A stretch of 64,000 nucleotides of DNA from Spartobacteria bacterium. Its GTDB lineage: Bacteria > Verrucomicrobiota > Verrucomicrobiia > Chthoniobacterales > UBA10450. Location: NCBI GenBank assembly GCA_003167555.1, contig PMSN01000011.1, positions 372,001 through 436,000 of the forward strand, given 5' to 3'. Positions 1,820-22,500 of the stretch are shown here, piece by piece. Position numbers and translations under genes: made by a program. Below the pieces are notes generated by a model. That model made no database searches, was not told where the DNA came from, and saw only the letters and a list, made by a program, of their open reading frames with translations. Each line of letters opens with the position of its first letter. Position 1 is the first letter of the stretch.

Positions 1820-2275
1820 ATGAAAAGAATCGCCTTTCCCATTCTCGCGTTAGCTTTCGCCCTTACTGCCACCGCCTCCTTCGCCGCCGAATGGCGCAGC
1901 GATTACGACAAGGCCCTGGCCGACGCGAAAGCTGCCAACAAATACGTCCTGCTCGATTTCAATGGCTCCGATTGGTGCGGGCCGTGCATCGAGATGAAGA
2001 AGGTGGTTTTCTCAAAACCCGCCTTCCTTACTTACGCGAGCAAGAACCTTATTCTCGTCGACGTCGATTACCCGCAACGAAAGAAACTTTCTGAAGCCGT
2101 CACGAAACAAAACGAGCGCCTGGCCAAGCAGTACGACATCGAACGAAGCGGGTACCCTACCGTGGTCCTCCTCGATCCAAGCGGAAAGGTCCTGGGCCGG
2201 CTCGAAGGCTACATGGGCGAAACCCCCGCCGACATGATCGCCTGGTTGGAGAAGGCGAAGAAGAAGGGCGGATAA
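1820..2275 (+). CDS. secreted thioredoxin-like protein
   Basis: A 151-residue protein with a signal peptide (MKRIAFPILALAFALTATA, cleavage likely after SFA) and a thioredoxin fold of the thioredoxin_7/DsbD-C type. The active site is WCGPC at about residues 53-57 (DWCGPCIEMKKVVF). It carries the YPTVVLLDPSGKVLGR strand with the cis-Pro expected near the active site. It is likely periplasmic and disulfide-reducing or isomerising. A GTG at 1808 would add four residues, but the ATG at 1820 gives the better signal peptide. The following gene encodes a molybdopterin oxidoreductase; any functional link is inference. Confidence 0.85.
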   Translation: MKRIAFPILALAFALTATASFAAEWRSDYDKALADAKAANKYVLLDFNGSDWCGPCIEMKKVVFSKPAFLTYASKNLILVDVDYPQRKKLSEAVTKQNERLAKQYDIERSGYPTVVLLDPSGKVLGRLEGYMGETPADMIAWLEKAKKKGG

Positions 2276-2278
2276 TAA

Positions 2279-2352
2279 GTTACTGGTTAATGGGTTATTT
2301 GTTATTGGTGGATGGTGGTATCTGAGAACTCATAACCGATAACCGATAACTT
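2279..2352. repeat. inverted pair of 7-bp tandem arrays, upstream of the 2355 gene
   Basis: Six successive heptamers fill 2279-2320 (units such as GTTACTG, GTTAATG, GGTTATT). After 11 bp, three heptamers of ATAACCG/ATAACTT type fill 2332-2352. The second group is the reverse complement type of the first, so the whole can fold back. It ends 2 bp before the ATG at 2355 and leaves no room for a Shine-Dalgarno sequence. Confidence 0.8.
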
Positions 2353-2354
2353 CT

Positions 2355-2978
2355 ATGTCAGTCAGCGCCAAGGAACGTTGGGCGCGCAAGATGAGCGGCA
2401 AAGCCAAGCCCTCTCTCCGCTCACACGACCGCTTGCCGCCCGGCCAGCATCTCACCGCCGGATTTCCCGTCCTCGATCTCGGCAGCCGCCCGGAGATTGC
2501 TCTCGATGAGTGGCGGCTCGAAGTCGGCGGCCTCGTCGAGTTTCCGCGCACCTTTACCTGGGAGCAGTTCAACGCGCTCCCGCAGTTCGAAGACGTGAGC
2601 GATTTCCACTGCGTCACCACCTGGAGCAAGTTCGATTGCCGGTGGGGCGGCGTCGCCTTCTTCACCCTCGCCGAATTCGTCAAACCGAAACCGGAAGTGA
2701 AACACGTCCTCTTCACCAGCTACGACGGCTACACCACCAATGTTCGCCTGGAAGATTGCAGGGACGACGACGTTCTCATCGCCACGCAGTTCGATGGCCG
2801 GCCGGTCCCGCGCGAGCACGGCGGCCCCGCCCGCGTCATCATCCCGAAACTCTACGCCTGGAAAGGCGCGAAGTTCGTGAAGTCGATCGAGTTCGCCGCC
2901 GGCGATCGCCCCGGCTATTGGGAAGTGCGCGGCTACAGCAACACCGCCGATCCGTGGAGGGAAGATCGGTTCGCCTAA
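2355..2978 (+). CDS. sulfite-oxidase-like molybdopterin oxidoreductase
   Basis: A 207-residue single-domain member of the oxidoreductase molybdopterin-binding family (SUOX fold, YedY/MsrP relatives). The Mo-ligand Cys is in DFHCVTTWSKFD at about residue 86. The family signatures GWRLEVGGLV-type (here DEWRLEVGGLVEFP), TSYDGYTTNVRLED and HGGPARVIIPKLYAWKGAK are all present. There is no Tat or Sec signal, so a cytoplasmic location is predicted, unlike MsrP. No heme domain and no adjacent heme-binding MsrQ partner is seen. The substrate is unknown. The start is placed at 2355 because the heptamer array runs up to it. Confidence 0.85.
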   Translation: MSVSAKERWARKMSGKAKPSLRSHDRLPPGQHLTAGFPVLDLGSRPEIALDEWRLEVGGLVEFPRTFTWEQFNALPQFEDVSDFHCVTTWSKFDCRWGGVAFFTLAEFVKPKPEVKHVLFTSYDGYTTNVRLEDCRDDDVLIATQFDGRPVPREHGGPARVIIPKLYAWKGAKFVKSIEFAAGDRPGYWEVRGYSNTADPWREDRFA

Positions 2979-2987
2979 AGGGCGAAC

Positions 2988-3053
2988 GGTTAATTGTTAT
3001 TAGTTAATGGTTAATCGTGAATCGGGACAACAAATAACTGCTAACCACTAACC
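2988..3053. repeat. inverted pair of 7-bp tandem arrays, upstream of the 3055 gene
   Basis: Five heptamers at 2988-3022 (GGTTAAT, AGTTAAT and variants) are followed after 10 bp by three inverted-type heptamers at 3033-3053 (GCTAACC, ACTAACC and one variant). The same unit family and architecture occur at 2279-2352. The last unit ends 1 bp before the ATG at 3055. Confidence 0.8.
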
Positions 3054-3054
3054 G

Positions 3055-3960
3055 ATGCTCCGCATTGCCCTCCTCCTTCTCCTCGCCCCGCTCATCGCGC
3101 GCGGCGACTACCGGGAGTTCCGCGCCGTTCCGGTCGACCCGGCGCTCGGCGCCGCGCTCACCCGCGCCGCCGAAGCCTCCTTGAAGGATTACCCGAAGCT
3201 CACCGCCGACAACCTGGCCCTCAGCGTCATCGATCTCACCAAGCCCGACGCCATCGTGCGCGCCGACTACCACGGCGACGCTTCTTTTTACCCGGCCTCA
3301 CTCGTGAAGCTCTTCTTCATGGTCGAGACCTATCACCAGGGTAAGCTTACTCCCGAGATCGAGCGCGCCCTGCGCGAGATGATTCACGTCTCGGATAACG
3401 ATGCCGCCGCCTTCCTCCTCGATATCCTCACCGATACCGCGAGCGGCTCCGAACTGGAAGGAAAAGCGCTCGAAGAATTCATCGAGCGCCGCCGGAAGTT
3501 GAACCGCTCCTTCGCCTCTCTCGGCTACGACATCGGCGCCATGATCAAGCCCTGGAGCTTCGGCCCGTTCGGCCGCGACATGCAGATCATGGGAGAGAAC
3601 AAGATCAACCGAAACCGCGCCAGCGCTAACTCCTTCGCCTCACTCTTACTCTGGATTGTCCGGCGCCACGCCATCTCGCCCCAAGCCTCCGATGCCATGA
3701 TGTCCTTGCTCGAGCGCCCGCTCGATCCGCCACGCCCCGATGAGAACCAGGTCAAAGAATTCTTCGGCGAATCGCTCCCGCCCGGCTCCAAGCTCTGGTC
3801 GAAAGAAGGCGACACCAGCGAAGTGCGCCACGACGCCGGCTACGTTGAGCTGCCGAACGGCCGGAAGCTGATCATAGTGATCCTCACCCGCGGTGCCGCC
3901 GATGATAAGACGTTGCTCCCGGGGATCGGCAAGCGGCTTTTAGCAGAGTTAGCGAAGTAA
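3055..3960 (+). CDS. class A beta-lactamase-like serine hydrolase
   Basis: A 301-residue protein with a short signal peptide (MLRIALLLLLAPLIARG). The active-site SxxK is SLVK at about residue 82 (YPASLVKLFFMVETY), the SDN motif is at about 113-115 (HVSDNDAAA), and a KEGDTSEVRHDAGYV segment stands where the KTG strand is expected. This is the 'beta-lactamase enzyme family' (PF13354-like) fold of secreted serine hydrolases. The canonical KTG triad is replaced by KEG, so true beta-lactamase activity is uncertain; a peptidoglycan-related or ester hydrolase is equally possible. It stands alone after its own heptamer array. Confidence 0.8.
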   Translation: MLRIALLLLLAPLIARGDYREFRAVPVDPALGAALTRAAEASLKDYPKLTADNLALSVIDLTKPDAIVRADYHGDASFYPASLVKLFFMVETYHQGKLTPEIERALREMIHVSDNDAAAFLLDILTDTASGSELEGKALEEFIERRRKLNRSFASLGYDIGAMIKPWSFGPFGRDMQIMGENKINRNRASANSFASLLLWIVRRHAISPQASDAMMSLLERPLDPPRPDENQVKEFFGESLPPGSKLWSKEGDTSEVRHDAGYVELPNGRKLIIVILTRGAADDKTLLPGIGKRLLAELAK

Positions 3961-4051: not shown

Positions 4052-4163
4052 TATCGTAAGCCGCTTACGATGCATTCAATCGAGGCGGAGCCTGTTTGAG
4101 AGACGATGTTACCCCCAGCTGGACGCGCGGAACGGTTTCTATCGTAAGCCGCTTACGATGCAT
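4052..4163. repeat. two identical 24-bp copies of a perfect palindrome
   Basis: Positions 4052-4075 and 4140-4163 are identical. Each contains ATCGTAAGC, one central C, then GCTTACGAT: a perfect 9-bp inverted repeat. The copies start 88 bp apart. Spacing and perfect symmetry suit either a protein-binding operator or another dispersed repeat family; the sequence alone does not decide. Confidence 0.8.
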
Positions 4164-9206: not shown

Positions 9207-9268
9207 TGTAAACGCGAGGCGCGCACGTGGCTGAGGGAGGGTGAAGCTGGCGCGCGCGTTCGCGCGCG

Positions 9269-9296
9269 AAGGAGAAAGGAGAAAGGAGAATGGAGC
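9269..9296. repeat. 7-bp tandem array, AAGGAGA units
   Basis: Three perfect AAGGAGA units at 9269-9289 and a fourth degenerate unit to 9296. Located upstream of the D-type pseudopilin start on the minus strand, where it reads as a pyrimidine tract. Confidence 0.8.
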
Positions 9297-9380
9297 CGCG
9301 GGATACGAGCGACATGGACGGTTAAGCCGGCGAGGTAGCCGGTGAGCTTTTGGGAGAAAGCGAATCAAAGGAGAAAACCG

Positions 9381-9436
9381 AGAATCTAGAAACCGAAAGA
9401 CAGAGGTCTGAGGACTGAGGTCGGAGGTCAGAAAGG
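9381..9436. repeat. 7-bp tandem array, AGGTC-type units, eight copies
   Basis: Eight successive heptamers following the pattern N-G-A-N-N-N-C, with units such as AGAGGTC, TGAGGTC and GGAGGTC. Phase is kept across all 56 bp, although only four units are close to identical. The same unit type occurs at 14531-14565 and inverted at 4184-4204. Confidence 0.75.
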
Positions 9437-9548
9437 CGACGGGGGGCTGAGGGCAAGGCCAAACGGGAAGCAAAGCCGGAGAGCGACGTTGAGGATCGAT
9501 TGAAGGCCCGGAATTCACGAGAGCTGACAGCGGATGGCTGTCGCCAAA

Positions 9549-9590
9549 TTAGAAAGTAGAAATTAGAAATTAGAAAGTAGAAAGTAGAAA
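9549..9590. repeat. 7-bp tandem array, (T/G)TAGAAA x6
   Basis: Six perfect-phase units alternating only between TTAGAAA and GTAGAAA, followed by ACGGGGGAAG. A shorter relative with the same downstream motif (AAACGGGG) is at 14505-14530. Confidence 0.9.
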
Positions 9591-9610
9591 ACGGGGGAAG
9601 CGCGAAGCCG

Positions 9611-21149: not shown

Positions 21150-22394
21150 CTACCCGGTAAATTCTGTCGCGACGAGCGTGGCGTTGTGTCCGCCGAAGCC
21201 GAACGAATTATTGATCGCCACGCGCACTTTCTTTTCCTTCGCCACATTCGGCGTGTAATCGAGATCGCACTCTTCGCCGGGGTTCTCGAGATTGATCGTG
21301 GGTGGAATCACGGAATCGCGGATCGCGAGCGCGCACACCGCCATCTCAATGGCGCCGGCTCCGCCTAACAAGTGGCCGGTCATCGATTTCGTCGAGCTGA
21401 TGGAAACTTTGTGCGCATTCTGGCCGAAGACGGTCTTGATCGCGCGCGTCTCGCAGATGTCGCCGAGCCCGGTCGAAGTGGCGTGCGCATTTACGTAATC
21501 GATCTGATCGGGCGTGATCTTCGCGTGCTCCAGCGCGATCCGCATCGCGCGCACGGCGCCTTCGCCATCGGGCGGTGGCGCCGTCATGTGGTACGCATCC
21601 GCGGAAAGTCCGTAGCCGATCAACTCGCAATAAATTTTCGCGCCGCGCGCTTTCGCGTGCTCCAATTCTTCCACCACCACGACGCCACCGCCTTCGCCCA
21701 TGACGAAGCCGTCGCGGTCCCGGTCCCATGGCCGCGAGGCGCGATGCGGCTCGTCATTCCGCGTGCTGAGCGCTCTCATCGAGGAAAAAGCCGCGACCCC
21801 GATCGGGATGATCGCGGCCTCGGAGCCGCCTGCGAGAAAAATATCGGCGTCGCCAAACTTGATCATGCGCCACGATTCACCGATGGCGTTGTTCGAGGTG
21901 GCGCAGGCCGTGACGATGCAAAGGTTCGGGCCGAGCAATCCGAATTCCATCGAGATCAGGCCGCTCGCCATGTTGCTGATCAGCATCGGGATCGTGAACG
22001 GCGAGACCCGCGAGGGACCCTTATTGAGCAACACGCTGTGCTGATCCTCGAGCGTCTTCAATCCGCCAATACCGCTGCTGACGATGACGCCGAAGCGCTC
22101 GCGATTGACCTTTTCCAAATCGAGGCCGCTGTCGGTCATCGCCATTTTTGCGGCCGCCATGGCGAACTGCGCGAAGCGATCGGCGCGGCGCGGGTCTTTC
22201 GGATTTTTGAAAAAATCCTTCGGCTCGAAATTGCGCACTTCGCCGGCGATCCGGCAATCGTAATCTTCGGTGTCGAATGCCTGAATGCGCTCGATGCCGC
22301 TGACGCCGTTGATGCAGTTGCGCCAGAAGGTATCGACGTCATTGCCGATCGGCGTAATGACGCCCAGGCCGGTGAGAACAACTCTGCGATTCAT
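21150..22394 (-). CDS. fabF: beta-ketoacyl-ACP synthase II
   Basis: A 414-residue thiolase-fold condensing enzyme of fatty acid elongation, using malonyl-ACP and acyl-ACP in the cytoplasm. Active-site Cys164 in VTACATSNNA; catalytic His residues in NAHATSTGLGD and SMTGHLLGGAGA; closing NNSFGFGGHNATL. Length and motifs are full. It is separated from the upstream guaB3-like gene by an inverted heptamer array, so it may have its own promoter. No acyl carrier protein gene is nearby. Confidence 0.95.
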   Translation of the reverse strand: MNRRVVLTGLGVITPIGNDVDTFWRNCINGVSGIERIQAFDTEDYDCRIAGEVRNFEPKDFFKNPKDPRRADRFAQFAMAAAKMAMTDSGLDLEKVNRERFGVIVSSGIGGLKTLEDQHSVLLNKGPSRVSPFTIPMLISNMASGLISMEFGLLGPNLCIVTACATSNNAIGESWRMIKFGDADIFLAGGSEAAIIPIGVAAFSSMRALSTRNDEPHRASRPWDRDRDGFVMGEGGGVVVVEELEHAKARGAKIYCELIGYGLSADAYHMTAPPPDGEGAVRAMRIALEHAKITPDQIDYVNAHATSTGLGDICETRAIKTVFGQNAHKVSISSTKSMTGHLLGGAGAIEMAVCALAIRDSVIPPTINLENPGEECDLDYTPNVAKEKKVRVAINNSFGFGGHNATLVATEFTG

Positions 22395-22402
22395 TGGGAA
22401 AT

Positions 22403-22496
22403 GACGAGTGACGAGTGACGAGTGACGAGTAAAGACAGAAGGAACATGATCGGTGTTTCCAAAAACTTGTCACACGTCACATGTCACTCGTCACTT
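22403..22496. repeat. inverted pair of 7-bp tandem arrays, TGACGAG and GTCACTC
   Basis: Four perfect TGACGAG units at 22403-22430 and four GTCAC(A/T)N units at 22469-22496. The second array is the reverse complement type of the first (GAGTGAC), so the arms can pair around a 38-bp loop. Practically the entire intergenic region between fabF and the guaB3-like gene is this element. Confidence 0.9.
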
Positions 22497-22500
22497 TCTT

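Follow-up and report, generated by a model that had tools for sequence, protein, structure and literature searches.

Tandem heptamers end within a few bases of two successive start codons in the 4.2-Mb genome of a soil Chthoniobacterales bacterium (Spartobacteria, Verrucomicrobiota), raising the question of whether such arrays control the genes that follow or have another reason to lie there. In the 64,000-nucleotide stretch of DNA analyzed here (the window), both elements consist of a GTTAnnn arm, a short spacer, and an inverted TAACnnn arm, with a period of 7 (Table 1). Direct reading confirmed the inverted GTTA/TAAC heptamer pairs of an earlier, sequence-only reading, at 2279-2350 and 2989-3052, and also that they abut ATGs, although the array ends it had given (2352 and 3053) had to be corrected to 2350 and 3052, which leaves 4 and 2 nt to the ATGs. 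Both ATGs are backed by orthologues. The gaps between the thioredoxin-like and sulfite-oxidase-like genes and between the sulfite-oxidase-like and beta-lactamase-like genes measure 79 and 76 bp and are nearly all period-7 arms and spacer. The arrays begin 3 nt (array 1) and ~10 nt (array 2) past the upstream stops, which end at 2275 and 2978, and span the whole stop-to-start gap, with the upstream stop as near as the start. TAAC-arm units in the window are TAACCGA, TAACTGC, and TAACCAC, with their inverses. On the 3' side of the beta-lactamase-like gene, the palindrome ATCGTAAGCCGCTTACGATGCAT occurs twice within ~90 bp (window 4055-4160).

Table 1. Positions of the two heptamer arrays, the adjoining mini-hairpin, and the neighboring genes in the window.
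Feature	Position	Strand	Sequence or domain
Thioredoxin-like protein gene, upstream of array 1	1820..2275	+	PF13899
Array 1, 5' arm	2279..2308	+	Four GTTAnnn units, period 7, one extra G; reads GTTACTG GTTAATG G GTTATTT GTTATTG G
Array 1, 3' inverted arm	2325..2350	+	(AGAACTC)ATAACCGATAACCGATAAC; reads (AGAACTC) ATAACCG ATAACCG ATAAC, then TTCT and the ATG at 2355
Sulfite-oxidase-like molybdopterin oxidoreductase gene, after array 1	2355..2978	+	PF00174
GC-rich mini-hairpin, directly outside array 2 5' arm, spanning the upstream gene's stop	2969..2987	+	GTTCGCC-TAAA-GGGCGAAC
Array 2, 5' arm	2989..3017	+	GTTAATTGTTATTAGTTAATGGTTAATCG; reads GTTAATT GTTATTA GTTAATG GTTAATC
Array 2, 3' inverted arm	3033..3052	+	AATAACTGCTAACCACTAAC, then CG and the ATG at 3055
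Beta-lactamase-family serine hydrolase gene, after array 2	3055..3960	+	PF13354

Both arrays are non-random. The pattern GTTAnnnGTTA-N(8-38)-TAACnnnTAAC was matched neither in sixty 64-kb third-order Markov simulations of the window nor in 20,000 shuffles of either gap, and TAACnnnTAACnnnTAAC is found at this site and one other place only in the whole 4.2-Mb genome. Stops occur in all six frames of both arrays and gaps, enough by itself to keep them out of reading frames.

The position of the arrays had led to the proposal that they take the place of the ribosome-binding site and could fold to hide or expose the start. The first part of this proposal fails, as neither leader holds a Shine-Dalgarno (SD) site and SD use is near background genome-wide: with start calls from a simple model of our own, an SD-like motif was found at -20 to -4 in 42 of 274 genes versus 31 of 274 in an upstream control. 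Array-free orthologues of the sulfite-oxidase-like gene, read by eye, were also without SD. Concerning folding, the arms are indeed capable of forming hairpins, with folding z-scores of -2.8 for the array 1 gap and of -1.45 for array 2 alone or -3.3 with its outer mini-hairpin. Sequestration of the AUG was not borne out, however, with pairing percentiles of 0.44 and 0.19 for the two genes and of 0.02 to 0.97 over all array leaders, in a comparison that leaves out the G004 control leader; only the -10 to -1 stretch was somewhat more paired than average. A cis-acting translational switch, in which the inverted arms fold across the leader and mask or expose the downstream AUG, would fit the approach of the arms to within 2-4 nt of the AUG and a -10 to +3 region that in most array leaders is more paired than in most genes. 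Against it, AUG pairing is unremarkable in a genome without SD usage, stops are equally near, and GTTA/TAAC pairs are also found between convergent genes with no start nearby. Arm-specific compensatory pairing was considered and rejected, since arms swapped between loci paired as well as their own partners (p 0.35, 16 loci), a test that is blind to a generic hairpin because the arms of one family are all complementary. A search for known RNA leaders or riboswitches (Rfam) gave a best match of 19.2 bits, below threshold against a gathering score of 38. Taken with the comparisons among relatives that follow, these results make the switch quite unlikely, and a regulatory reading of the arrays is weakly supported.

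At the same locus in other species of the genus, the pair and its genes do not always travel together. G001 lacks the thioredoxin gene and array 1 but has the pair before the beta-lactamase-like gene, ending 1 nt from its ATG. In G005 and G007, a different gene lies upstream of the beta-lactamase-like gene, which is still preceded by GTTA and TAAC arms, the last TAAC lying ~8-11 nt before the ATG. Pairs flank the thioredoxin gene on both sides in G003, where there is no beta-lactamase-like gene. The sequence-only reading had raised the possibility that only some strains carry the array; at the level of species, this is what the alignment of orthologues showed, with an array in these four relatives and none in G004 and G006, whose beta-lactamase-like orthologues are without it. 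Four species of the genus, this one among them, have kept an array pair at a distance of 1-11 nt from the start of the beta-lactamase-like gene, which would fit a switch, whereas the array-free orthologues speak against one. This pair is probably inherited, with fast turnover of its units, and it is not obligatory.

Gaps elsewhere in the genome provide a broader comparison. The gap before a gene that we take to be murG, from its N-terminal sequence, is 2 bp long in this genome and 37 bp in G005 and G007, and holds a 94-bp AGATTGC pair in G006. Such gains of whole units before genes whose sister copy has a gap of 2 bp further argue against the switch. A second gap measures 3, 4, and 3 bp in three species, and in G007 it holds a 149-bp TGACGAA pair. 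A third spans 6 and 18 bp versus 106 and 95 bp, and a fourth 13 bp versus a 136-bp pair; in this last gap, the two remaining species have unrelated palindromes. Between mbl and xth lie a GTTA pair in G005, a different heptad pair that reaches the ATG in G004, three bases in G001, and unrelated palindromes or half of one in five others. The gap within a 2-oxoacid:ferredoxin-oxidoreductase-like gene pair holds four heptad families in four species and ~10 bp in two. Heptad pairs are present, absent, replaced, or shrunk to a few bases between otherwise conserved and often nearly abutting genes, as differences between species that could reflect gain or loss. Contact with the start codon therefore follows when a unit arrives in, or expands out of, a gap only a few bases long. 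A tie of the arrays to accessory genes (thioredoxin-like and beta-lactamase-like) was also considered and is not general, as arrays occur between korA/korB-like genes and before xth. At window 22392-22498, an inverted TGACGAG/CTCGTCA pair fills a 106-bp gap before a gene whose gap in two sister species measures 6 and 18 bp.

The GTTA/TAAC arrays are not alone in the genus. In 436 kb of this genome, period-7 arrays come in many sequences, and across 569 gaps in four genomes of the genus, 15 inverted heptad pairs were found at period 7 versus 2-5 at periods 5, 6, 8, 9, and 10. Unit families in the genus include GTTATTR, TGACGAR, GTGACGA, GTGAATC, CAAGCWC, GAGGATG, and AGATTGC, and several heptad unit families recur in more than one species. 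Within the family, pairs of the GTTA..TAAC order were found at ~17 places in 13 of 83 genomes, and the reverse order at one place, in another unit family. Some arrays flagged as genic, possibly through gene-caller errors, were set aside. The contexts of the GTTA..TAAC pairs are 13 co-directional, 3 convergent, and 1 divergent, a co-directional excess that is borderline (p 0.06-0.08), and the co-directional pairs lie a median of 13 nt from the stop and 11 nt from the start (distances read by hand). Separately, two species (L191 and L200) have GTTA heptads, with TTCTACT heptads in one of them, at a shared site that appears to fall within a conserved reading frame of TPR-like type. In the window, GGAGAAA, GAGGTCN, and AAAGTAG arrays follow each other in one intergenic region (9262-9598). 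On contig C23 of this genome, near-perfect long palindromes TGTCATCCCGAGC...GCTCGGGATGACA recur in the intergenic gaps at ~211695, 224798, and 228647 (contig coordinates); they lie mostly in convergent or co-directional gaps, and strong folding is rare in divergent ones.

We consider it fairly probable that the two arrays are copies of a dispersed, fast-evolving, non-coding intercistronic repeat of this Chthoniobacterales lineage, similar in kind to REP elements and mostly neutral. The element would consist of a short spacer between two tandem 7-bp arrays, one of GTTAnnn and one of the inverse TAACnnn, and in many cases a mini-hairpin 1 nt outside an arm. Its units may expand and homogenize through 7-nt slippage, template switching or transposition could give rise to inverted copies, and selection would retain only those copies that land between genes. 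With a TAACnnn unit, TAA appears in each of the three frames, and with an inverted pair it does so on both strands, because of which such a pair cannot persist inside a reading frame. The array contacts both stop and start because the recipient gap has only a few bases, and an array leader is tolerated because the lineage hardly uses SD sites. By analogy with REP/BIME, the element may be transcribed as an intercistronic hairpin whose influence on mRNA stability, termination, or translation would be no more than mild. The sequences show the presence, polarity, and context of the elements, the filled and empty sites, and the lack of SD; near-neutrality, slippage or template switching, and any such effect on mRNA we infer. 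The dispersed repeat is supported by the excess of inverted pairs at period 7, the empty sites, the different elements that one gap may hold, the single prevailing polarity, the near-equal distances to stop and start, the lack of SD usage and of arm co-adaptation, the stops in all six frames, and hairpin-prone gaps that are commoner at convergent and co-directional than at divergent junctions. Retention in four species despite a changed upstream gene speaks against it, as this also fits a function for the beta-lactamase-like gene, and so do the borderline co-directional excess, the lack of a transposase or slippage mechanism linked to the repeats, and the position-locked mini-hairpin described below.

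If the hairpin were itself functional, it could serve as a terminator or attenuator, or block RNases, and thereby fix the proportion of upstream to downstream gene in the transcript. Folding across gap types is consistent with this, the mean gap z being -3.2 in convergent, -1.95 in co-directional, and -0.8 in divergent gaps, as is the GC-rich mini-hairpin that spans the stop codon ahead of array 2. However, terminator-like sites (a stem with a T-rich tail) in the region were at chance (4 found, 2.9 expected), as were promoter or terminator signals at the arrays, and the element comes and goes in conserved operons, where different, unrelated elements may occupy the same gap. We thus regard a functional intercistronic hairpin as unlikely, and retain the mostly neutral dispersed repeat as the preferred explanation.

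The mini-hairpin outside array 2 points to a feature of the arrays beyond the heptamers. In 23% of arms, and in 47% in a second genus, a perfect stem of 5 bp or more begins exactly 1 nt past the last TAAC, compared with 1.6% of random positions. The 28 nt outside TAAC arms fold at -7.3 kcal/mol versus -3.6 on the inner side and -5.0 for random intergenic sequence (p 7e-5 versus intergenic). As this test followed prior noticing of the hairpin, it was rerun on new arms from another genus, where the outer side gave -6.8 versus -4.0 for random sequence (p 4e-5), with a difference from the inner side of p 0.04 only. In G001, a different stem occupies the place of the array 2 mini-hairpin. Slippage alone fails to explain a mini-hairpin that is locked in position, and its fixed place 1 nt beyond TAAC arms offers a concrete new lead. 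It is possible, though we hold this tentatively, that GTTA/TAAC arrays and a locked, sequence-variable mini-hairpin form an undescribed composite element, which unknown machinery would copy whole into stop-start gaps, alongside other heptad families of the same inverted architecture. Two broader notions were rejected: the mini-hairpin was not seen as a trait of heptad families when all were pooled, and genome-wide, TAAC does not mark hairpins in general (ratio ~1), whereas GTAG is enriched 17-19 fold. At L346 and L350, in another genus, tandem modules consist of a TAAC array, 1 nt, a variable hairpin, and the next TAAC array.

Heptamer arrays before starts have been read as regulators. Across the sister species, whole inverted heptad units come and go between nearly abutting genes, murG among them, so that closeness to a start codon alone is no evidence of regulation. 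TAACTGA direct repeats are known from Beggiatoaceae, Cyanobacteria, and Bacteroidetes (169 sets, one indirect, in BOGUAY); they are intergenic, often a few nucleotides before the start of SD-less genes, and carry stops in all forward frames (PMC4679880). The arrays here resemble them as intergenic members of a TAACnnn family, 4 and 2 nt before starts, and differ in being inverted pairs with degenerate last three bases and in their presence or absence in orthologous gaps. Sites for an RNA- or DNA-binding regulator of TAAC heptads, as proposed for the Beggiatoaceae repeats, would account for the shared heptamer family and position just before starts (PMC4679880), and perfect TAACTGA repeats do occur in the relative G004. 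Yet the inverted rather than direct arrangement, the many other heptad families at the same positions, and the scarcity of TAAC arrays in this genome (three places, versus tens of matches in G005 and G007) leave such a regulator very unlikely. The dispersed repeat that we prefer also shares with REP/BIME (PMC3733652) short intergenic hairpins that avoid divergent gaps, unlike which GTTA/TAAC elements have no GTAG or CGTC tag and have tandem-heptad arms instead of a fixed palindrome. GTAG-preceded hairpins, intergenic and enriched 17-19 fold, do occur in four genomes of the genus, and Y1 transposase domains (REP-associated type) in all eight, beside the heptad elements in co-occurrence only.

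Also among the closest counterparts are the inverted heptameric repeats GGGAATC of Xanthomonas and GGGGA(T/C)T of Nostoc, which have a period of 7 and are ~90% intergenic, with 70-75 convergent inverted pairs per genome, mostly in co-directional and rarely in divergent gaps; near stops the unit lies on the coding strand, near starts on the non-coding one, and close species differ widely (PMC4692102). In common with these repeats, the present elements have exact 7-bp tandem intergenic units in inverted pairs of one polarity, and their architecture, positions, and orientation rule are those of the Xanthomonas GGGAATC repeats (PMC4692102). They differ in their unit, GTTAnnn/TAACnnn, which has no GGG tract, is not G-rich, and is without G-quadruplex potential, as well as in the several unit families of one genus, the mini-hairpin 1 nt outside the arm, and the Verrucomicrobiota host; the literature searched yielded nothing on heptamer repeats in Verrucomicrobia. 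The old question of why the unit is 7 bp and how inverted copies arise becomes directly testable through clean filled and empty sites in a genus that has several unit families. With the defining unit of neither, the GTTA/TAAC elements are a variant that behaves like the Xanthomonas and TAACTGA repeats.
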